From positions 186,001-250,000 of the forward strand of contig JAFSGE010000025.1 of the NCBI GenBank assembly GCA_017434885.1: DNA of 64,000 nt, given 5' to 3'. The notes under the pieces are model-generated. The model was not told the DNA's origin, did not search any database, and worked only from the letters and a program-made list of their open reading frames with translations. Source of the DNA: Lachnospiraceae bacterium (GTDB lineage Bacteria; Bacillota; Clostridia; Lachnospirales; Lachnospiraceae). Positions 158-19,656 of this stretch are shown one piece after another. Position 1 is the stretch's first letter, and every line of letters begins with the position of its first letter. The translations under genes were made by a program, and so were the position numbers.

Positions 158-2437
158 ATGAAAATGAAACAAATCAAAGAATTAATTTCACAGATGACAT
201 TGGAGGAAAAAGCATCCATTTGCTCCGGTGCCGATTTCTGGCATACGGAGAAGTTAGAGAGACTGGGGATTCCGGCAACGATGGTTTCTGATGGACCGCA
301 TGGTCTTCGCAAGCAGGATGAAGGAGCAGATCATTTAGGTATTAATGACAGTATTAAAGCAGTTTGCTTTCCGGCAGGCTGTGGAAGCGCGGCGTCTTTT
401 AACAGAGAGCTCCTTACGGAAATGGGAGAGACTTTGGGAAATGAATGTCAGGCAGAGGGTGTCAGTGTCATTTTGGGACCTGCCGTTAATATCAAACGTT
501 CTCCTCTTTGCGGAAGAAACTTTGAATATTATTCTGAAGATCCTTACCTGGCTTCCCAGATAGCAGGGGCATTAATCAAAGGTATCCAGAGTAAAAATGT
601 AGGAACCAGCATTAAGCACTTCTTGGCAAACAATCAGGAAAACAGAAGAATGTCAGTATCGGCTGAGGTGGATGAGCGTACCTTGCGTGAGATTTATCTT
701 GCGGCTTTTGAAACAGCAATTAAAGAGCAGAAGCCTTGGACGGTAATGTGCTCTTACAATAGAATTAACGGCGTTTACGCGGCGGAGAACAAAAAATATC
801 TTACCGATATTCTTCGCGGTGAATGGGGTTTTGATGGTTATGTTGTAAGTGACTGGGGTGCAGTCAATGACCGTGTGGCGGATTTGAAAGCCGGACTCGA
901 CTTAGAAATGCCTTCCTCAAACGGCATGAACGATGCGCTGATTGTGGAAGCGGTGAAGAATGGTACTTTGGATGAAAAAGTAGTGGATGAGGCGGTAGAG
1001 CATATTTTAAACATTGTGTACCGCTTTGAGGAAAACAGAGATAAAACAGCAGTATTTGACAGGGATAAAGACCATGAAAAAGCCCGCAAAGTGGCAGAGG
1101 AAAGCATAGTTCTTCTGAAAAATGACGATATCCTTCCTCTTTGCGAGTCGCAGAAGGTTGCTTTTATCGGAAAGTATGCGCAGAAACCCAGATATCAGGG
1201 CGGAGGAAGTTCTCACATTAACAGCCATAAAGTGACAAGTGCTATGGAGGCAGCAGCAGATAATGCGAATATCACATATGCGCAGGGCTATGTTGATAAC
1301 AAGAATGAGGTAGATGAGGTACTGCTTGCAGAGGCTTTGGAAGCTGCAAAAAATGCTGATGTGGCGGTTGTATTTGCAGGACTTCCCGATGTTTTTGAAT
1401 CAGAAGCATATGACAGAAAGCATATGCATATGCCTGATTGTCAGAATCTGCTGATTGAAAAGGTGGCAGAGGTGCAGCCCAATGTGGTAGTAGTGTTGCA
1501 TAACGGTTCGCCTGTAGAAATGCCTTGGCTTCCTAAGGTAAAAGGTGTGCTTGAGGCATATCTTGGCGGTCAGGCGGTAGGTGGTGCTGAATATGATATT
1601 TTATTTGGTAAAGTAAATCCCAGTGCCAAACTTCCTGAAACTTTTCCGATTCAGTTAGAGGATAATCCGTCCTATCTGAATTTCCCCGGAGAGGGTGATA
1701 CTGTGGAGTACCGGGAAGGAATTTTTGTAGGATACCGATATTATGACAAGAAAAAGATGAATGTGTTGTTTCCTTTCGGACACGGACTTTCCTATACAGA
1801 GTTTGCGTACAGTAATTTGAAGCTGTCTGCAGAAAGCATTAAGGATACGGATGAACTGACGGTGTTCGTTGATGTGACCAATACAGGAACACGGGAAGGC
1901 AAGGAAGTAGTGCAGCTCTATGTTTCCGACAAAGAGAGCTTTGTGATTCGTCCGGTGAAAGAATTAAAGGGATTTGAAAAAGTATTTCTGATGCCGGGAG
2001 AAACAAAAACAGTGACATTCACACTGAATAAGAGAAGCTTTGCTTACTACAATACGCAGATTCATGACTGGCACGTGGAAAGCGGCAGTTTTACAATTAT
2101 GATTGGTAAATCGTCGAGAGACATTGTAGTTACAGCGGATGTAGAGGTACATTCGACTGTAGAACTTCCGGTTTTCTATACGACAGATACACCGCTTGGT
2201 GATGTGATAAAGAATGAAAAGGTAGCAGATATGATAAGGGGCTTATTTGCAAACAATGTTCTTGATTCACAGAACGCTGCAACGGAGGCATCTTCTGAGG
2301 CTATTACAGCAGAGATGATGGAAGCCCAGATGAGAGATATGCCGCTTAGAGGTGTACTCAGCTTTGCGGGAGATTTGGGAATTGACATGAACAAATTGCA
2401 GGAGCTGGTAGACCAAATGAACCGCATGAATCAGTAA
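158..2437 (+). CDS. GH3 family beta-glucosidase
   Basis: Glycoside hydrolase family 3 enzyme of 759 residues, probably cytoplasmic because no signal peptide is present. The start at 158 follows an AGGACAGGGG ribosome site; an ATG at 164 is an alternative, and longer open frame upstream overlaps the preceding gene. The N-terminal barrel carries the family nucleophile motif VVSDWG with Asp about residue 232 and the KHF and NRR substrate-binding blocks. The alpha/beta sandwich follows and then the fibronectin-III-like domain (FGHGLSY, EVVQLYV). After that domain there is a roughly 90-residue tail ending in a methionine-rich stretch, longer than in the minimal family. It likely cleaves plant beta-glucosides imported as oligosaccharides. 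The exact substrate cannot be read from sequence. Confidence 0.93.
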   Translation: MKMKQIKELISQMTLEEKASICSGADFWHTEKLERLGIPATMVSDGPHGLRKQDEGADHLGINDSIKAVCFPAGCGSAASFNRELLTEMGETLGNECQAEGVSVILGPAVNIKRSPLCGRNFEYYSEDPYLASQIAGALIKGIQSKNVGTSIKHFLANNQENRRMSVSAEVDERTLREIYLAAFETAIKEQKPWTVMCSYNRINGVYAAENKKYLTDILRGEWGFDGYVVSDWGAVNDRVADLKAGLDLEMPSSNGMNDALIVEAVKNGTLDEKVVDEAVEHILNIVYRFEENRDKTAVFDRDKDHEKARKVAEESIVLLKNDDILPLCESQKVAFIGKYAQKPRYQGGGSSHINSHKVTSAMEAAADNANITYAQGYVDNKNEVDEVLLAEALEAAKNADVAVVFAGLPDVFESEAYDRKHMHMPDCQNLLIEKVAEVQPNVVVVLHNGSPVEMPWLPKVKGVLEAYLGGQAVGGAEYDILFGKVNPSAKLPETFPIQLEDNPSYLNFPGEGDTVEYREGIFVGYRYYDKKKMNVLFPFGHGLSYTEFAYSNLKLSAESIKDTDELTVFVDVTNTGTREGKEVVQLYVSDKESFVIRPVKELKGFEKVFLMPGETKTVTFTLNKRSFAYYNTQIHDWHVESGSFTIMIGKSSRDIVVTADVEVHSTVELPVFYTTDTPLGDVIKNEKVADMIRGLFANNVLDSQNAATEASSEAITAEMMEAQMRDMPLRGVLSFAGDLGIDMNKLQELVDQMNRMNQ

Positions 2438-2511
2438 GGCTTCTGGGAGAATTATGTTTTGTGTAAAAGTAACGTCCGGCAGCGGGAGTATAAAGGGAAG
2501 GAAACAAAAAA

Positions 2512-4818
2512 ATGGAAAATGAAAAGCGCAGAAAAACAATAGGAATTCTGGTCGGCGGAATTATGGATGATTTCACCAAATTGATATGTCGGGGTGCCAT
2601 GCAGATGGCGAAGCAGCTTGATGTTAATCTTGTGGTGTTTCCGGGTAAATATTTAAACAGGGATTTATCTGACAATCCGGAGCTTCGATATGAGTATCAG
2701 TTTGGTACGGCATTTTCCTATGCAAGACCGGAGAATGTGGATGCCATTATGGTGGCGGCAGGCTCCATCGGTTGTTTTACCGATAAGGAAAATATAGAAA
2801 AGATGCTGAAGGAATTTGAGGGAATTCCCTGTGTATTTGTTGCATACAAGATGGACGGATATCCCTGTGTATTGTTTGATAACTACAGCGGTATTGAAGA
2901 AGGTCTGAACTACCTGATACAAAAAATCGGACTGAAAAAATTCGGTATGATAGGCGGCAGTCTTGACAATACGGATGCCATGGAAAGAAGAGAAGCATTT
3001 ATAAACGTGCTTGGAAAGAATGGAATCCCCTTTCAGGAAAAAATGTATGTAAGCGGAGATTTTTCCAAAAAGAGCGTAGAGGCATACAGGCAGATTCTGG
3101 ACAACAATCCTGACATGGAAGCTGTATTTTGTGTCAATGACGATACTGCTATCGGATTTTATGATGAGGTGAAAAAAAGAGGACTTCAAATAGGAAAGGA
3201 TATCCGTATTTTCGGCTATGATGATGTAATTATTTCTACAAAAATGAATCCGACCTTATCATCAGTTCGCGCGGACAGTACGTTACTTGGAGAAGAAGCA
3301 GTTAAGATGGCGCTTCATATGGCACATGGGGAGCAGGTGGAGAGCAGGGTACTTCCGACCCAGTTTGTGAAGCGTGACTCCGTGGGAGGTAAGGATGAGG
3401 AGGAAGAGGACAGCAAAGAGAAGATAAAAACAGCAAGTAATGTCTATACAGGGTTTGAGGATATTTTCTATCATTACAACCACGAAAAATATGAAAAGGA
3501 AATGAAACGGATTTTTGAGCCGTTCAGAAAGCTGGTACATACCATTACATTAGTATATGGAGAAGGTGATGATTCACCGGAAAACTTTATGGAAATTCAA
3601 ACGGCATTAAATGACTTTTTGAATTATGGTGCCATAGAGTATGCGGACATGAATAACCTGCTCAGTTTCTTTGAATCATTTTACAAGACTTTAAAAGAAG
3701 CGCAAAAGGATAAGGATGACCGATTCAAACTGCAGGAAATGTTTTCTGCTATTTACAGAAGAATTATCAGAGCAACCGATTACCGTATCGGAAGCATGAT
3801 CAGCAGGCAGGAAAAAGAAAACTATGAGATGAAACTGTTTGTTCGTGATGTACTTCAGTTTGAAAAAGGAAATGATTTAAGCTATGCCTCCATGCTTGGA
3901 AACCTTGAGTGGTTGGAAATTGAAAGTGCTTTTATTTATACATTTAAAAAACCGATTACTCATTTGGATAGAGAAGCATTTCAGCCACCTAAGAGTTTAT
4001 ATTTAAAGGCGATGCTTAAGGACGGGGAAGTGTCTGCCATCCCATCTATCAGACAAAAAGTATCTGTTAAAAATATTTTTGACAATGATTTTATGAACCG
4101 GGAAGAACGCCGGGCGTATGTGTGTATGCCGCTTTTTACCAATGAAATCCTTTATGGTATTTTATTGTGTGATTTGACGGAAGGTATATTTGCCAACGGA
4201 GAATTCCTGTTGAATCATATGAGCTCTGCGGCAAAGATGATATTGCTTTTGCAGACTACTGAGCAGATGCAACAGAAGCTGGAAGAGAATATGGCAGTCC
4301 TGATGGAGAATAACATTGAGCTTGATAACCTTTCCAAGTCAGACAGTCTTACCGGCATCTGGAACCGAAGAGGATTTTACGCTGAGGCCGAAAAACTGAT
4401 TTGTGAGGCAAAAGAGGAAAAGAAGAGCCTTCTTGCCATTTATGTGGATATGAATAATCTTAAGATTATCAATGACAGATACGGTCATGAGGAAGGTGAC
4501 TTTTCCATAAAACTAATCAGTAGGATTTTATCGGAAGAGATGACTGATATCGGAATTGCGGGCAGAATCGGCGGTGATGAATTTGCGTGTCTGGTTAAGT
4601 ATGGAGTGGCAGATGGCGGAGAGAGCATGATTTCCCGGATTTACAGCAGGTTTGATGCATTTAACAAAGACAGCGACAAGCCTTATAATGTTACGATATC
4701 GGCGGGTGCATTTATGATGCCGGAAGACGATACGGTTACACTGGAACAGGCACTTACTCAGGCAGATGAAAAACTGTATGAGGTTAAGAAAAACCGTAAG
4801 AAGGATGTTGCAAAATAA
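2512..4818 (+). CDS. LacI/PBP1-like sugar-sensor domain fused to GGDEF diguanylate cyclase
   Basis: Protein of 768 residues with no signal peptide or membrane segment, so both ends should be cytoplasmic. Residues about 8-290 are a periplasmic-binding-protein-like domain of the LacI type (VFCVNDDTAIGFYDE, IFGYDD, SSVRAD), but the helix-turn-helix that LacI regulators carry in front is absent. A middle region of about 300 residues is of unrecognised type. The C-terminus (about 611-768) is a GGDEF domain with an intact RIGGDEF motif (GGDEF at 687-691), expected to make cyclic di-GMP from GTP. It lies 74 bases downstream of the GH3 gene in the same direction, so a sugar released by that enzyme could be the ligand. 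That link is inference. Confidence 0.9.
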   Translation: MENEKRRKTIGILVGGIMDDFTKLICRGAMQMAKQLDVNLVVFPGKYLNRDLSDNPELRYEYQFGTAFSYARPENVDAIMVAAGSIGCFTDKENIEKMLKEFEGIPCVFVAYKMDGYPCVLFDNYSGIEEGLNYLIQKIGLKKFGMIGGSLDNTDAMERREAFINVLGKNGIPFQEKMYVSGDFSKKSVEAYRQILDNNPDMEAVFCVNDDTAIGFYDEVKKRGLQIGKDIRIFGYDDVIISTKMNPTLSSVRADSTLLGEEAVKMALHMAHGEQVESRVLPTQFVKRDSVGGKDEEEEDSKEKIKTASNVYTGFEDIFYHYNHEKYEKEMKRIFEPFRKLVHTITLVYGEGDDSPENFMEIQTALNDFLNYGAIEYADMNNLLSFFESFYKTLKEAQKDKDDRFKLQEMFSAIYRRIIRATDYRIGSMISRQEKENYEMKLFVRDVLQFEKGNDLSYASMLGNLEWLEIESAFIYTFKKPITHLDREAFQPPKSLYLKAMLKDGEVSAIPSIRQKVSVKNIFDNDFMNREERRAYVCMPLFTNEILYGILLCDLTEGIFANGEFLLNHMSSAAKMILLLQTTEQMQQKLEENMAVLMENNIELDNLSKSDSLTGIWNRRGFYAEAEKLICEAKEEKKSLLAIYVDMNNLKIINDRYGHEEGDFSIKLISRILSEEMTDIGIAGRIGGDEFACLVKYGVADGGESMISRIYSRFDAFNKDSDKPYNVTISAGAFMMPEDDTVTLEQALTQADEKLYEVKKNRKKDVAK

Positions 4819-13143: not shown

Positions 13144-14343
13144 TTAAACAGGAAGATAAACTATGACGGTTATCATGTTGTTTTCTGATTTTATTTCGTG
13201 TCTTCCGTCGTATTTTTCCAGTACATCTTTAATTTTGTGGAGACCGTGTCCGTGATTGCGGTCTTTTGTTTTGCGTTTTGAAAATGCCTCTTGTGTATGT
13301 ACACTGTTTGACATTTCAATGGAAAAATAAGTTTTGCCGCCGGAAAAACGAATGATAATTTCGGGTGGAGCGATTTCGTTTTCGCATTGGCTTGCGGACG
13401 CGATGGCGTTGGACAACATGTTGGAAAACAAAGTGCATAAATCCATTGCGGAAACAGTGTGCAGGGTGGGCAGATTGCCGTGTGTGGTAACTTTAATTTT
13501 GTCATTACAATAGTGCGGCAAATCATGATACAGGATAGCATCAACAATATCGTTTCCCGAAAGGCTGAGCTTTTGCTGGAAAGAAAAGGACTCATCCAAA
13601 TCTTTGAAATAGTTTTGTAATTCATCGGTTTTTCCGGTATTAAAAAGGTACTCCATGCAGATAAAGTGATTCTTAATGTCATGACGGAATTTTCGAAGCT
13701 CTGTATCCATCAAATCCATGTCCTGATAGTATTTTAACTGTTTTTCTATCAGGCGTCTGTTTTCTTCATTACTCTTGGTTGCCTGTCCCAAAAAGCGTTC
13801 GGCAAAAATTTCCACAAACATAATGCACGCCGAAGTCACCACGTACATAAGAATTCGGTAAGCGATTACTTCACTCAATAACGCATCGTTTACCGGCAGG
13901 TAATTTTCGGGATATATGGCATGGGCAATCAGTAAAAAAACAGCATAAGAAAAAATGTTAAAAGCCATTAATCTGCTGTCAAACAAAAAGGCAATAACGG
14001 ACAAAAAGATAAATGTACATTCCCAGACATAATAGGAAGGGAATAAATACAAAATGGCGTTATATTGGATAAACAACAGGATTACAATAAACGCTTTAAC
14101 AAAGCGCAAATGCTCTGATATGTAAGTGGGTTCTTTTTTGTTGCGGTAAATAAAATAGACACCGACTGACATATAAATCATATGACTTACGTCAAACAGT
14201 ATAATTTGTATCCAGGATAAATTAGGATAAAAACCTAAAAACTTGCATGCGGTCCAATAGCTTCCCGCACACATGCACAGTCCGGGAATTAAAACCAGTA
14301 TATACCGATGTACGGACTCCCAATATTTTTTAATAACATTCAT
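13144..14343 (-). CDS. GHKL-type sensor histidine kinase with six-helix membrane sensor (AgrC-like output)
   Basis: Sensor kinase of 399 residues. The start at 14343 is chosen because a TTGGAG site lies seven bases upstream; an in-frame ATG at 14364 has none. Residues about 10-190 contain about six hydrophobic segments. The phospho-acceptor block is RKFRHDIKNHF with His about 221, and the ATP-binding domain at about 280-399 has the N box (NMLSNAIASA) and a glycine block (HGHGLHKIKDVLEKY). This is the AgrC/HATPase_c_5 group that partners LytTR regulators. The membrane domain is plainly similar to that of the divergently encoded methyl-accepting protein, as described among the findings. The signal is unknown. 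Confidence 0.92.
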   Translation of the reverse strand: MNVIKKYWESVHRYILVLIPGLCMCAGSYWTACKFLGFYPNLSWIQIILFDVSHMIYMSVGVYFIYRNKKEPTYISEHLRFVKAFIVILLFIQYNAILYLFPSYYVWECTFIFLSVIAFLFDSRLMAFNIFSYAVFLLIAHAIYPENYLPVNDALLSEVIAYRILMYVVTSACIMFVEIFAERFLGQATKSNEENRRLIEKQLKYYQDMDLMDTELRKFRHDIKNHFICMEYLFNTGKTDELQNYFKDLDESFSFQQKLSLSGNDIVDAILYHDLPHYCNDKIKVTTHGNLPTLHTVSAMDLCTLFSNMLSNAIASASQCENEIAPPEIIIRFSGGKTYFSIEMSNSVHTQEAFSKRKTKDRNHGHGLHKIKDVLEKYDGRHEIKSENNMITVIVYLPV

Positions 14344-14571
14344 GTAAACACTCCAAGTAAACAATACTCCCCAAATTTTATTTTACATTGTAATTGAATT
14401 AATGCAATTACCAAATAACGGTTAATTTTGACCATTTAATATTTAGTGTCTGCGAGGAAGGATGAAATGTAGTATAATAGTACCAAAGATTTCCTGAGAT
14501 TAGTTGTTTGGCAGAATTGCGCAAAGACAACATTCGGATGAAGTACAATGATTGATAAAGGAGAGGTTGGT

Positions 14572-16116
14572 ATGGGAAAGAAAAAAACAGCAGTCGAGGT
14601 ATACTTATCGGCGGTATTTAAGTGGGGACTGCTCATTTTGGTGTGTGCATGTATGTGTGCTACCGTAATGTTCAACACAGAAAAGGTATTTGGATTTTAT
14701 CCCGGTACAAAGTGGATTACTTTGATTTTGTTTGCCGTAATGGATATCTCATTTTTTGTAATGGCACTTATCATTATGAAAACGTCCTTTGACAAAGATG
14801 GTTACCTGAAAGAAGGAAAGCTGAAAATCGGAAAGATTTTTTCGTCGGTGATATTGATTATTCAGTGGAACTACATTTTGTATATGCTTCCTTCCAGAAC
14901 ATTCTGGGGATTTTTATTCTTCTTCCTGATTCTGATAGCTTTTTTCCTGGATATTAAGCTGTTGTTATTCAATGGTTTGGCTTGTATGGGTTCTCTGTTT
15001 ATCGGATGGGCAATCAGAGGAAGCGATTTGATGCCGGTGAAGGATGAACTGTTCCTTGCAGATGTCCTTATGTGTTTGGTAGCGTTGATGTTATCTCTTT
15101 CGGGATTAATTATTTTTGTATTCTTTGTATCACATTTTCTGGTAAATGCAAAGAAGGATGAGCTTGAGAAAAATAACCAGCATGTGATGGGAGTGCTTGA
15201 TTCTGTACAGACGTTATCTGAAAGATTGTTTGCGGCAGGTTCTGCACTTTCCCAGATTTCAGAAACAGAAAGTGCTTCTGCACAGGAACTGGCAGCAACC
15301 AGTGAACAGCTTGTTGAAAGCAGTAATATTCTCAGTGCCAAAACAGATGAGAGTATGGCAAACTTGAGCGAATTGAGTCAGTGGGAACAGGTAGTTGCCG
15401 AAAATGTGGAAAAGGTAGAAAGCACATCAAGAGAGTTACTTGATAAATCCATTGAAAATGAAAAACTTTTAAACAGTTTACATGAAATTAACGGTGAAGT
15501 ATCCGAGTCTATGAAGTTGACAACTGATACTGCACAGAAACTGTCAAGTGCTGTGGAAGAAATCGGAGTTACTTTAAAGTTGATTAATGATATTTCTTCT
15601 TCTACCAACTTGCTTGCGTTAAATGCATCTATTGAGGCGGCAAGAGCAGGTGAAGCAGGCAGAGGCTTTGCGGTAGTTGCTTCCGAGGTGGGAAATCTTG
15701 CAAACAGCACGCAGGAATCCTTAAAGATTGTACAGGCAGTCATTGAAAGAGTACAGAACAATGTAATTGAAATTACCAAACAAATTGAAAATAATGCATC
15801 TAAGTTAGATACACAGAATGAATATTTTGCAGATGTATTTCAGAGTATGCAGGAGATGACAAAGCTTCTGAATACGTCTGTGGATAATATTAACACCATG
15901 GGAGATGCTCACAGCAAGCAGTCAGAGGTAATTAAGAATACGGTATCCATCAACCAGGATATCGCAGAGAGTATCAAAAATGAAAACGAGCAGTTTACTT
16001 GCATTAATGCCATGGCAGAGAGCAATGCAAGCAGTACCTGTGAGGTTTCTACACAGGCAGGCGCTATCAGTGAAATGGTAGATGAAATGAGTAAATTGCT
16101 GAATGCAGATATGTAG
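14572..16116 (+). CDS. Methyl-accepting chemotaxis-type signalling protein with six-helix membrane sensor
   Basis: Protein of 514 residues. The ATG at 14572 follows an AAAGGAGAGG ribosome site; an ATG at 14548 is in frame but has no site. Residues about 15-200 are a polytopic membrane domain rather than the usual periplasmic sensor between two helices, and no HAMP domain is evident. The remainder is a long coiled coil ending in a methyl-accepting signalling domain with the tip [20 protein letters not shown] at about 350-369, the site that binds CheA and CheW. A TATAAT at 14473-14478 could be its -10. Its sensor resembles that of the adjacent kinase. No flagellar or che genes lie nearby. Confidence 0.92.
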
Positions 16117-16305: not shown

Positions 16306-16341
16306 GTTTAGCGGTGCACCTAAAAAAGAAAAGGAGCAGAA

Positions 16342-19300
16342 ATGGAAGTAGAGAAACAACAGGAAAAGGCATATCTGAAAAAGACATTGCAGATAATTAA
16401 ACGGAACATGGAATCCTACGAGGGCGAAGTGAACAAGATGCAGGCAGAAATCGATGAGATGCTGGAGCATTATCATGACAATGATGTGGAGCTTTACACA
16501 GCACTCACCAACACCATTACCATGAAAGATAACATGAAGCGTGCTCTAATGCGGAATCAGAAAGCGCAGAAAAAGCCATATTTCGGCAGAATTGTCTTTT
16601 GGGATGAAACAGAAGAAAAGGAAGAATCACTTTATATCGGCAGAGGCGGAATTTCTGAGGATGCAACACATCAGGTGGTAATTGACTGGCGCGCGCCGGT
16701 TGCAAACGCCTATTATGAGAACGGATTGGGGAGATGCAGCTATCCGGCTCCGGACGGTGGCGACTTTCCCATTGATTTGAAGCTGAAAAGAACTTATGAG
16801 ATTGAGAACGGAAAGCTAATCGATTATTTTGATACGGAGGTTATTGCCAATGATGATTTGCTGACCAAGTATCTGGCAAAGAATAAGCAGGCGGTTTTGG
16901 GGGAAATTATTGCCACTATCCAGAAGGAGCAAAATGAGATTATCCGTAAAAGTCCTTATCACAACATGATTGTTCAGGGTGTTGCCGGTTCGGGAAAGAC
17001 TACAGTCGCCATGCACAGAATTTCTTATATTTTGTATAACTATCAGGAACGGTTTAAGCCGGATGACTTTTATATTGTGGGAAGTAACAGAATATTACTG
17101 GAATACATTACAGGTGTGTTGCCGGATTTGGATGTATACGGAATCAGGCAGATGACCATGGAAGAGCTTTTTGTTCGGCTTCTTTACGAAGATTGGGATG
17201 ACAAAAAGTATCGCATTCGCAGAAATGCGGAAGCGGATTTTGGCAGTAATGTGCGCGGAACCTATGCATGGTTTCATGATTTGGAGGGGTTCTGCAGACG
17301 CTTGGAACAGGAAAAAATACCTGCAAAAACAATATTTTTAAATCCCAAGCAATTTGTGGAGGGACTACAAGACGGAAAGACGGGAGTTTTTGATGAAACT
17401 ATTGGGAAATGTGTAAATCCGAAGGATTTGATTACTATCTTATCTGCTGATGACATAGAGAAATATATTTTACAAAATCCCACGGTGTCTGTTCAGAACA
17501 AAATCAATATGCTGAATGAAAGACTTATCAGTAAACTGAAGGATGAGTTTTTGGGAAAAGGGGTGAAATATACAAAGGAAGAACAAAAGGCTATCATAAG
17601 AGCCTATCGCGGCAGATTTGGCAGGAACATCTGGAAATATTCTATTTTTGACATGTATCATGATTTCCTGATGGAGCAGATAGAAAAAGGAATTATGATT
17701 GAAATTCCCCACAGGGAATTTGATGTTTACGACCTTGCTGCGCTTGCGTATCTCTACAAAAGAGTAAAGGAGACGGAGGTTATCAGTGAAGCCCATCACG
17801 TGGTAATCGATGAGGCACAGGATTTTGGAATGATGGCATATGCGGTTTTGAAATACTGCATTAAGGATTGTACTTACACCATTATGGGTGACGTATCCCA
17901 GAATATTCATTTCGGCTATGGACTGAATGATTGGGAAGAACTTCGGACGTTGATGCTTTCCGGTGAGAGGGCTCATTTCGGCATTCTTAAAAAGAGTTAC
18001 AGAAATACTGTGGAAATTTCTGAATTTGCCATGAATATATTGCATCACGGCAGGTTTGCGGCGTACCCGGCAGAACCGATTATCCGACACGGAAAAGATG
18101 TAGTGGTGCAAAGATGTGATGACAGGGAAGAACTTATAAAGGAGACGGCAGGAATTTGCCGTAAGTGGCTCTCTTCGGGACTTGATACTGTTGCTGTGAT
18201 TTGCAGAAGCGAGAAGGAGGCAAAAAAAGCAGCGGCAGAACTTTCAAAATATGTCAAAGTAGCAGAAAGTGATTTGGAAAAAGCTGTTTATGAAAACGGT
18301 GTCATGGTTTTGCCTGTTGCGTACACGAAGGGTCTTGAGTTTGATGCGGTTTTGATTTTGAATCCGGACAGAGGAGATTATCCTGTGGACGACGGACATG
18401 CCAAGCTTTTGTACGTGGCAGCAACCAGAGCATTACATGAACTATGTGTGTTGTATGAAAGAGATTTGACGGGACTTATTGCAGATCCGGTTCCGGAGAA
18501 AAAAGTTTCCTTTGTACGGGAGAAAGAAGTTGTTCGTAACCAAATTGTGGAAGAGCAGAAAACGTTGAGTCAAGGTGTAAAAGCACAAACAGCTGTAATA
18601 GCGAAGAGAGCGAACCCTGCGGAAACAAAACAGAGAGGAGTAAAACCTAAAGCGGTTATCAAGACTCCGAAACAGATACAACCGAATTCCCAAACAGTAC
18701 TTCTTACAGGTGTGGGAGGAAGCGCGCGTTCCAAGGTTAATATTGTGCGTCCGAAATCTGCGGAGGAGGCAGCAAATGAAAAGTACGGGCGGGATTACAG
18801 CATCTATAACAGAAAATCTGCCAAAATAAATCAGTGTGAGGCAACAGCCGGAAAAACTGTGGAAAAAAACGGACAGGAAAAAAATGCGCCACGGTTTGGC
18901 GATATGCCGGTTACAGAGCAACTTCGCCTGCCGGGACATGCCAAAGCAGATTTGTCGGTAAAGTGGACTATGCGGCAGCCTGACGGACTTTATTTGCAGA
19001 GCCGCTGCGGAGTACTCAGAATTTCGCCGGTTACCAGTGAAATTATTCGTATTACTTTTGCGGTGAAGGGGCAACCGAAAGAAGAGTCTCATGAGAGAAT
19101 AGCATTGCAGACAGCGGAGCGTGCATGGATGTACAAAGATCTTTCAGCTTATGTGGAAGTAGCTACCGATGACATTATTCTGCGGGTTGATAAAAAGAGT
19201 GGTGCGATTACTTACATGGATGAAAATGGAAAGATTTTGCTTTCAGAACGGATAAATGAATGCCGCGTGATAAGCGAGATGTCCGGTAAGGTAAAGGCAT

Positions 19301-19608
19301 GGCAGTTTTTTGACTGGAAAAAGCAAAATCTTTATTGCCCGGGAATTGGGAATCAGGAGGGGTTAAAGCTTTCCGGCAAAGCGTATTATATTTCCGGTGA
19401 TAGAGAAAAAGCGGAACTGCCGTTTCTGCTTTCAGATAAAGGATATGGTATTCTGATTGCTTCCGATGCTCCTGTAATCTGCTGTGACATTTCAGCGTAT
19501 GGTTCTTACTTTGCGGCAGAGGAGAACCAGATAGATTATTATTTTGTTACGGGAAAAGGACAACAGAAGCTTATACAGAATTGTGAAAGGTTATATGGAG
19601 AAAAATAG
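16342..19608 (+). CDS. HelD-like UvrD-superfamily helicase fused to a GH31 N-terminal (mutarotase-like) domain
   Basis: Protein of 1088 residues; the start follows an AAAAGGAG site. Residues about 1-715 are a superfamily-1 helicase of the HelD type: N-terminal coiled coil, Walker A GVAGSGKTT at 213-221, Walker B DEAQ at 490-493, and late motifs (VLPVAYTKGLEFDAV, LLYVAATRA). HelD-type proteins bind RNA polymerase and free stalled complexes. Residues about 716-870 are a basic, low-complexity linker. Residues about 871-1088 match the beta-sandwich that precedes the barrel in GH31 alpha-glucosidases (PDGLYLQSRCGVLRISP, VDKKSGAITYMDENG, ELPFLLSDKGYGIL, DYYFVTG). The catalytic barrel is missing and the frame stays open with no break. 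The helicase call is firm; the domain's role is unknown. Confidence 0.88.
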   Translation: MEVEKQQEKAYLKKTLQIIKRNMESYEGEVNKMQAEIDEMLEHYHDNDVELYTALTNTITMKDNMKRALMRNQKAQKKPYFGRIVFWDETEEKEESLYIGRGGISEDATHQVVIDWRAPVANAYYENGLGRCSYPAPDGGDFPIDLKLKRTYEIENGKLIDYFDTEVIANDDLLTKYLAKNKQAVLGEIIATIQKEQNEIIRKSPYHNMIVQGVAGSGKTTVAMHRISYILYNYQERFKPDDFYIVGSNRILLEYITGVLPDLDVYGIRQMTMEELFVRLLYEDWDDKKYRIRRNAEADFGSNVRGTYAWFHDLEGFCRRLEQEKIPAKTIFLNPKQFVEGLQDGKTGVFDETIGKCVNPKDLITILSADDIEKYILQNPTVSVQNKINMLNERLISKLKDEFLGKGVKYTKEEQKAIIRAYRGRFGRNIWKYSIFDMYHDFLMEQIEKGIMIEIPHREFDVYDLAALAYLYKRVKETEVISEAHHVVIDEAQDFGMMAYAVLKYCIKDCTYTIMGDVSQNIHFGYGLNDWEELRTLMLSGERAHFGILKKSYRNTVEISEFAMNILHHGRFAAYPAEPIIRHGKDVVVQRCDDREELIKETAGICRKWLSSGLDTVAVICRSEKEAKKAAAELSKYVKVAESDLEKAVYENGVMVLPVAYTKGLEFDAVLILNPDRGDYPVDDGHAKLLYVAATRALHELCVLYERDLTGLIADPVPEKKVSFVREKEVVRNQIVEEQKTLSQGVKAQTAVIAKRANPAETKQRGVKPKAVIKTPKQIQPNSQTVLLTGVGGSARSKVNIVRPKSAEEAANEKYGRDYSIYNRKSAKINQCEATAGKTVEKNGQEKNAPRFGDMPVTEQLRLPGHAKADLSVKWTMRQPDGLYLQSRCGVLRISPVTSEIIRITFAVKGQPKEESHERIALQTAERAWMYKDLSAYVEVATDDIILRVDKKSGAITYMDENGKILLSERINECRVISEMSGKVKAWQFFDWKKQNLYCPGIGNQEGLKLSGKAYYISGDREKAELPFLLSDKGYGILIASDAPVICCDISAYGSYFAAEENQIDYYFVTGKGQQKLIQNCERLYGEK

Positions 19609-19613
19609 TGAAA

Positions 19614-19656
19614 CCCGGCAAATAGCGCGCTTGCGTTATTTGCCGGGAGTCTTTTT
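19614..19656 (+). terminator. Rho-independent terminator of the helicase gene
   Basis: An 11 bp stem (CCCGGCAAATA / TATTTGCCGGG) is followed by AGTCTTTTT. It abuts the end of the minus-strand nuclease fragment. Confidence 0.85.

Follow-up and report, generated by a model that had tools for sequence, protein, structure and literature searches.

A HelD-type ATPase of Lachnospiraceae with an in-frame C-terminal sandwich domain of the type found in GH31 enzymes

HelD proteins have been described in two size classes, a large one of 740–850 amino acids (aa) and a small one of 680–720 aa, which differ in their arms (PMC8655204). The HelD of B. subtilis, a Class I protein of 774 aa, ends with domain 2A (PMC7749167). 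PcrA, another motor of superfamily 1 (SF1), binds the RNA polymerase beta subunit through a C-terminal Tudor domain that is attached by a long disordered linker (PMC8318588). In enzymes of glycoside hydrolase family 31 (GH31), the N-loop contributes to the active-site pocket and binds sugar through its Asp303 (PMC4742823), and a tyrosine of the N-domain (loop Tyr99) can contact sugar as well (PMC9061262); most of the described sugar contacts come from the catalytic barrel (PMC4742823, PMC9061262). Here we analyze a gene that joins a HelD-type motor to a domain of the GH31 type, located at 16342–19608 on the forward strand of a 64,000-nucleotide stretch of Lachnospiraceae bacterium DNA (assembly GCA_017434885.1, contig JAFSGE010000025.1, positions 186,001 to 250,000), the whole of which is referred to as the window.

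The gene product is best explained as a HelD-type (Class I-like) RNA polymerase-recycling ATPase with a domesticated GH31 sandwich tethered to its head. The open reading frame is unbroken from the ATG at 16342 to the stop codon at 19606–19608 and encodes 1088 aa, as a single continuous frame, in agreement with the original prediction made from the letters of this stretch. The same prediction had recognized an SF1 helicase of about 715 residues with intact Walker motifs, and GSGKT (216–220) and DEAQ (490–493) are indeed both present. The best curated match of residues 1–715 is the NCBIfam profile HelD_BACSU (E-value 1.4e-101), and the B. subtilis HelD chain 6wvk_H is matched with an E-value of 6.6e-71. 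At 340.7 bits the window protein scores below the HelD_BACSU cut-off of 419 bits, which we treat as a naming threshold and not as a structural feature; the model is matched by 23 of 23 members at E <= 0.001.

Borders transferred from B. subtilis HelD (PMC7749167) by alignment place a secondary-channel arm at residues 1–183 (16342..16890), comprising an N-terminal helical hairpin, D46, D48 and E50 at its predicted turn, and W116. It is followed by the first part of domain 1A with the Walker A motif (residues 184–271; 16891..17154), a clamp-arm insertion (272–482; 17155..17787), the second part of domain 1A with DEAQ (483–556; 17788..18009) and an undivided domain 2A, the head (557–715; 18010..18486). 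This SF1 core of 1A and 2A, with a clamp arm in place of 1B, points to the layout of Class I HelD, in an alignment to 6wvk chain H that spans the motor apart from the first 64 residues of the arm and the clamp arm. Judged from the alignment, the window protein appears to share the domain order, the Walker motifs, the conserved Trp and the acidic turn positions of the Class I HelD of B. subtilis (6wvk; NF041464). D46, D48, E50, W116 and the Walker lysine K219 are invariant among 23 aligned same-genus proteins (alignment A2, 23 of 28 used), so that both the acidic arm tip, located by a predicted turn at 43–48 in a low-confidence model, and the conserved Trp between arm and 1A are found as in Class I. 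ATP-dependent release of stalled RNA polymerase is the predicted activity. The motor is of the small kind (the 680–720 aa class of PMC8655204); by our own count, its stretch from the hairpin turn to the first aligned block is about 10 residues shorter than in B. subtilis. In contrast to B. subtilis HelD, which ends with 2A, the window protein continues for about 370 residues more.

The C-terminal part (residues 869–1088; 18946..19605) is a galactose-mutarotase-like beta-sandwich of the GH31 N-terminal type, followed by a terminal helix. Such a domain had been proposed for this region, with a search of fold libraries as the check, and the fold search gave a clear match to the GH31 N-terminal sandwich. 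Profile searches agree: the window protein alone matches PF13802 with an E-value of 0.0018, at a score of 19.4 against a gathering score of 27, and an alpha-xylosidase model matches residues 887–1087 (E 6.5e-4), while 25 of 27 family members match PF13802 at E <= 0.01, the best at 4.9e-12. The strand that precedes the barrel, DYYFVTG, starts at 1065 as foreseen, and the protein ends where, in the alignment, the catalytic barrel of GH31 enzymes starts. The (beta/alpha)8 barrel with the WxDxxE nucleophile region is absent, and the window protein is not a GH31 enzyme. It differs from the FjDex31A dextranase and the cycloalternan-forming GH31 enzymes in lacking the barrel, the catalytic residues and the C-terminal domains; the fused sandwiches also lack the N-loop signature of enzymes of this type. 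A 786-aa GH31 enzyme (L199, G376:C18) has an N-domain among those scoring closest to the fused sandwiches and occurs in a genome that carries the fusion as well; the group of this enzyme may be the donor lineage.

The fused domain has kept the fold of the enzymes and changed where the enzymes approach their substrate. Our alignment sets 56 fused sandwiches against 27 GH31 N-domains, which were chosen by similarity to the fused sandwich and all come from enzymes with WxDxxE (27/27). Core residues common to both sets are G890, R893, R903, E969, S1031, G1034, Y1035, G1054, D1065, Y1067 and F1068 (window numbering). From its place in the chain, the segment between the end of a strand (999) and P1027 probably corresponds to the GH31 N-loop. 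Within it, columns 1002 (Q), 1021 (N) and 1024 (I) are invariant in the 27 enzymes and columns 1004 (E), 1015 (Q) and 1019 (Q) are 85–96% conserved, and at these six positions the enzyme residue is kept in at most 10% of the 56 fused proteins. The signatures GLGQxE[ED]G and YxH[QP]AN occur in none of the 56 fused sequences; as regular expressions, similar patterns are found in 24 (GLG motif) and 18 (YxHxAN) of the 27 enzymes. Ahead of the strand 983–990, five of six aligned enzymes have up to some 40 residues (fewer in L199) that the fused form has lost. In turn, A1014, I1017 and S1018 within the N-loop segment, and W987, K994 and C1048 outside it, are conserved at 84–98% in the fused proteins and absent or nearly so in the enzymes; I1050 and P1051 are conserved at 80% of the fused set, the window having S1051. 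As the core is shared and new positions are conserved, the fold appears to have been kept while the sugar-facing segment was replaced by something conserved, and not left to drift.

On the sequences, the sandwich has lost the sugar-contact signature of GH31, and an N-loop that contributes to a sugar pocket is not to be expected here. This bears on the proposal that the domain senses a sugar, in which binding of maltose, glucose or another carbohydrate by the sandwich would gate the motor. In its favour are the glycosidase-type fold of the domain and the habit of the hosts, gut bacteria that ferment carbohydrates. Nevertheless, the barrel that provides most of the sugar contacts described for GH31 is missing, and with it the two signatures and the invariant Q, N and I columns. 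The near-complete replacement of N-loop residues that the enzymes hold almost invariant makes a sugar sensor quite improbable.

The combination of motor and sandwich is found in many genomes. In the genus of the window, 28 of 36 genomes (including that of the window) carry the sandwich, and none of the frames that encode it is shorter than 1,042 aa. Among 397 genomes drawn from the Lachnospiraceae, 33 genomes have it, in 25 of 334 genera by our own count; in 30 of these (23 genera) it is part of one frame of more than 1000 aa, two are cut by a contig end (G107, G065) and one is frame-split (G208). Of 80 loci of named records, 78 encode motor and sandwich in one frame, and since the shortest of these frames has 741 aa the motor is incomplete in a few. 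The two exceptions are L106, frame-split in the linker, and L128, of which only the 3' part is present at a contig end. The hosts include the named or cultured species Acetatifactor muris, Eisenbergiella tayi, E. porci, Parablautia intestinalis and P. muri. The expectation that the same two-domain order would recur in other Lachnospiraceae has therefore held across genera, and because it recurs in so many assemblies the fusion is not an assembly join or a sequencing error. At the order rank, 22 of 392 genomes (the family of the window included) had a match at E <= 1e-20. Of these, 11 have it in a frame of 1,000 aa or more and are without exception members of the family of the window; one further genome of this family (G704) has a 908-aa frame of the GH31 type. 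The remaining 10, from other families, have frames of 784–822 aa, all with WxDxxE. Above the order rank, the sandwich fusion was covered by the pattern-limited scan of the best 80 of 98 relatives.

The frame-split loci are L106, with overlapping frames at 100–2943 and 2453–3508, and L206 (in G208), with frames at 779–3028 and 2919–3887; in both the split falls in the linker, and each may be a sequencing error, a pseudogene or a real two-gene form.

In a tree of 70 motor sequences, 57 fused rows lie on one side of a branch with support 99/96, and one change explains all fusions in 98% of 200 bootstrap trees. The 57 rows comprise 56 in-frame proteins and the frame-split L206, counted as fused; scoring L206 as short raises the number of changes to two. 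The trees include 15 short HelDs, selected from a larger set of matches. Two of the initial 72 rows, the long-branch short HelDs L211 and L250, were omitted, and a quick tree of all 72 recovers the same fused group with a Shimodaira–Hasegawa-like approximate likelihood-ratio (SH-aLRT) support of 97. Motors without the sandwich (L212, L213, L215, L245, L251) form the sister rows. In a tree of the sandwich, the fused proteins are split from seven GH31 domains by a branch with support 100. Pairwise distances of motor and sandwich correlate in 55 proteins (r 0.934, with a maximum of 0.279 in 1000 permutations; L057, with ambiguous bases, was excluded from alignment A1 and the 55-row analyses), and the two halves have therefore been inherited together, which is not evidence of contact between them. 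The sequences show that the fusion arose once in the sampled set, and a recent or scattered origin is rejected, the fused motors being one clade over at least 23 genera. Genome G416 contains a pair of HelDs, the fused L242 (G416:C21) and L245 (G416:C47), which belongs to the sister group and has no sandwich.

Between the two domains lies a variable, Lys-rich linker (residues 716–850; 18487..18891) that is predicted to be disordered, as indicated by its spread in length, its substitution rates and the model confidence. The original prediction had put this basic linker at about 150 residues, and it measures 135, with a net charge of +14. In 55 fused proteins it ranges from 65 to 182 residues and is rich in K, E, A and P. 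In a full-length structure model of poor quality, the predicted local distance difference test score (pLDDT) is below 50 at 709–780 and 782–847. By eye, some linkers in the genus (those of the window protein, L034, L046 and L049) contain a short basic-hydrophobic stretch, RKKVxxx...P..., amid loose sequence; it is a possible second binding peptide. The linker is followed by an entry motif (residues 851–868; 18892..18945), conserved in the fused form just N-terminal of the sandwich, of which the commonest form is FGDMPxTxxLRPxGH. FGx[MLIV]P is found in 43 and GH in 46 of 55 fused proteins, and in the GH31 set of 31 frames, which includes a few other frames from the same loci, FGx[MLIV]P is absent from the first 80 residues throughout. 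In the same poor model, residues 851–860 are the first to be predicted with good confidence after the disordered linker (pLDDT 82).

The charge of this region could indicate a nucleic-acid tether, in which template DNA or nascent RNA would be gripped by the basic linker and the weakly basic sandwich as the motor strips off RNA polymerase. Median net charges over 55 proteins are +7 for the linker and +5 for the sandwich, against -18 for the motor. However, the linker charge is not conserved (from -3 to +19) and its sequence is loose, the sandwich fold is not a nucleic-acid-binding one, and K994 is the sole basic residue among the most conserved new positions. We consider a tether of this kind unlikely.

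Motor and sandwich are jointly present in 28 of the 36 genomes of the genus and jointly absent from the other eight, none of which has a motor of this lineage. One of the eight has a distant HelD (G026, 31% identity) and another a weak match (G017, E 5e-4), and in six (G001, G009, G010, G011, G027, G034) no HelD was matched at E <= 0.001. As the eight assemblies are 89–98% complete, a few of the absences may be assembly gaps. The motor seems dispensable in the genus, unless the six assemblies without a match (89–95% complete) just miss it.

In nine close pairs, the ratio of non-synonymous to synonymous substitution rates (dN/dS) is 0.032–0.145 for the motor, 0.191–0.762 for the linker and 0.076–0.300 for the entry motif and sandwich; the pairs are partly non-independent, and in the pair of the window the synonymous sites of the motor are near saturation. 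From these ratios, the sandwich is under purifying selection. This constraint also bears on whether the sandwich is a passive or neutral passenger, or an artefact of assembly or annotation. The frame changes in the linkers of L106 and L206 are what such a reading would draw on. Against it are the single frame of 78 of the 80 named loci, the low dN/dS of entry motif and sandwich and the lack of any loss within the sampled fused clade, and it is very improbable; an artefact is already contradicted by the recurrence in many assemblies. Compared with its nearest relative L032, the gene of the window (16342–19605) shows a synonymous difference of 0.726 in the motor and of 0.372 in the sandwich part. 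This lower value suggests that the 3' part of the gene was recombined or converted between close species.

The original prediction had offered reuse of the domain as a scaffold for RNA polymerase. The part that stands is the docking scaffold, which is our best reading: that the sandwich acts as a docking module bringing the motor to a partner, whichever that may be, is given about an even chance. RNA polymerase itself as that partner is a tentative addition, held with clearly less confidence. In the mechanism we propose, the face that once packed on the glycosidase barrel and active site would have been remodelled to bind a protein, and the sandwich, tethered flexibly by the Lys-rich linker, would dock the motor on its partner, which most likely belongs to the transcription complex. 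Docking might raise the local concentration of the motor or steer its arms into the channels of RNA polymerase; alternatively, the sandwich might connect the motor with the ribosome, the replication machinery or some other third party. Since the arms of HelD already hold RNA polymerase, a motor of the small kind could benefit from an additional anchor. PcrA/UvrD offers the closest parallel in arrangement: it too is an SF1 motor, and its small beta domain is joined C-terminally by a long, disordered tether (PMC8318588). It differs in that its fold is unrelated and its motor belongs to another subfamily; the C-terminus of the window protein is a GH31 sandwich and not a Tudor fold of the PcrA or Mfd type, and by analogy its sandwich may bind a partner. 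The full account, in which the domain was domesticated once in a Lachnospiraceae ancestor, with the sugar contact lost, the barrel face turned into a new protein interface, the domain retained since then as a fixed part of one HelD lineage and this HelD recruited by a contact that other known HelDs lack, is possible, at somewhat less than even chances.

The sandwich could also be an intramolecular regulator that folds back on the motor or its arms and keeps the ATPase off until displaced. Motor and sandwich were gained and kept together, the linker is long enough at 65–182 residues, and the entry motif is predicted to be ordered beside the sandwich. On the other hand, linker length is very variable, no interdomain contact is visible in the poor full-length model, and the correlation between the halves (r 0.934) reflects shared descent and not contact; such a regulator is improbable.

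Several points weigh against docking as the function. The changed positions are placed on one face by their order in the chain, and W987, K994 and C1048 fall outside the N-loop segment. Quality is low throughout the full-length model, motor included (pLDDT 59, predicted template modelling score 0.35), for which reason it speaks neither for nor against docking of the sandwich onto the motor, and structure prediction was set aside as a guide to interdomain docking. The net charge of the sandwich (median +5, from -2 to +12) would fit nucleic-acid binding too, and a new ligand pocket, unrelated to that of GH31, is possible. The dN/dS of the sandwich exceeds that of the motor in eight of nine pairs, indicating faster evolution, and the joint absence of motor and sandwich can be the plain loss of one gene, and is no proof of joint function.

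The gene is flanked by signals on the same strand. A Shine-Dalgarno-like AGGAG, read in the sequence, precedes the start codon (16332..16336), and the terminator noted earlier was found directly 3' of the stop codon as an intrinsic terminator-like hairpin of 15 pairs, nine of them G-C, with a T-rich tail (19614..19647). Among the neighbourhoods of 28 fused loci, no conserved partner gene is shared. A cluster of ABC-transporter ATPases, with paralogues lumped, lies near the fused gene in 15 of the 28, and the permease-type clusters c2 and c3 in six and five; gene neighbourhood was rejected as an informative clue to function. Upstream in the window (13144–16116), a sensor-kinase-like protein on the reverse strand and a chemoreceptor-like protein on the forward strand are divergent neighbours that fall in one similarity cluster, and judged by eye they have a common N-terminal membrane domain.

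The main text of the HelD survey makes no mention of "C-terminal", "glycos", "fusion" or "extension" (PMC8655204). The HelD variants that it covers, of 680–850 aa, vary in arm size, and a tethered C-terminal module is described nowhere in the literature found. Equally, a fusion of HelD with a GH31 N-domain is undescribed in the papers found (among them PMC8655204, PMC8318588, PMC7749167, PMC10719064, PMC12802891, PMC4742823, PMC9061262 and PMC9491548), a coverage outside which most subscription papers fall. As this literature reports no such fusion, the window protein would be a HelD with a new, domesticated C-terminal domain. The fused form is a clear example of a domain of a sugar enzyme put to another use. 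Many natural sequences are available, cultured species among them, which makes the hypothesis directly testable. Docking of the sandwich, be it on RNA polymerase or on a different partner, would represent a new way of targeting a recycling motor.
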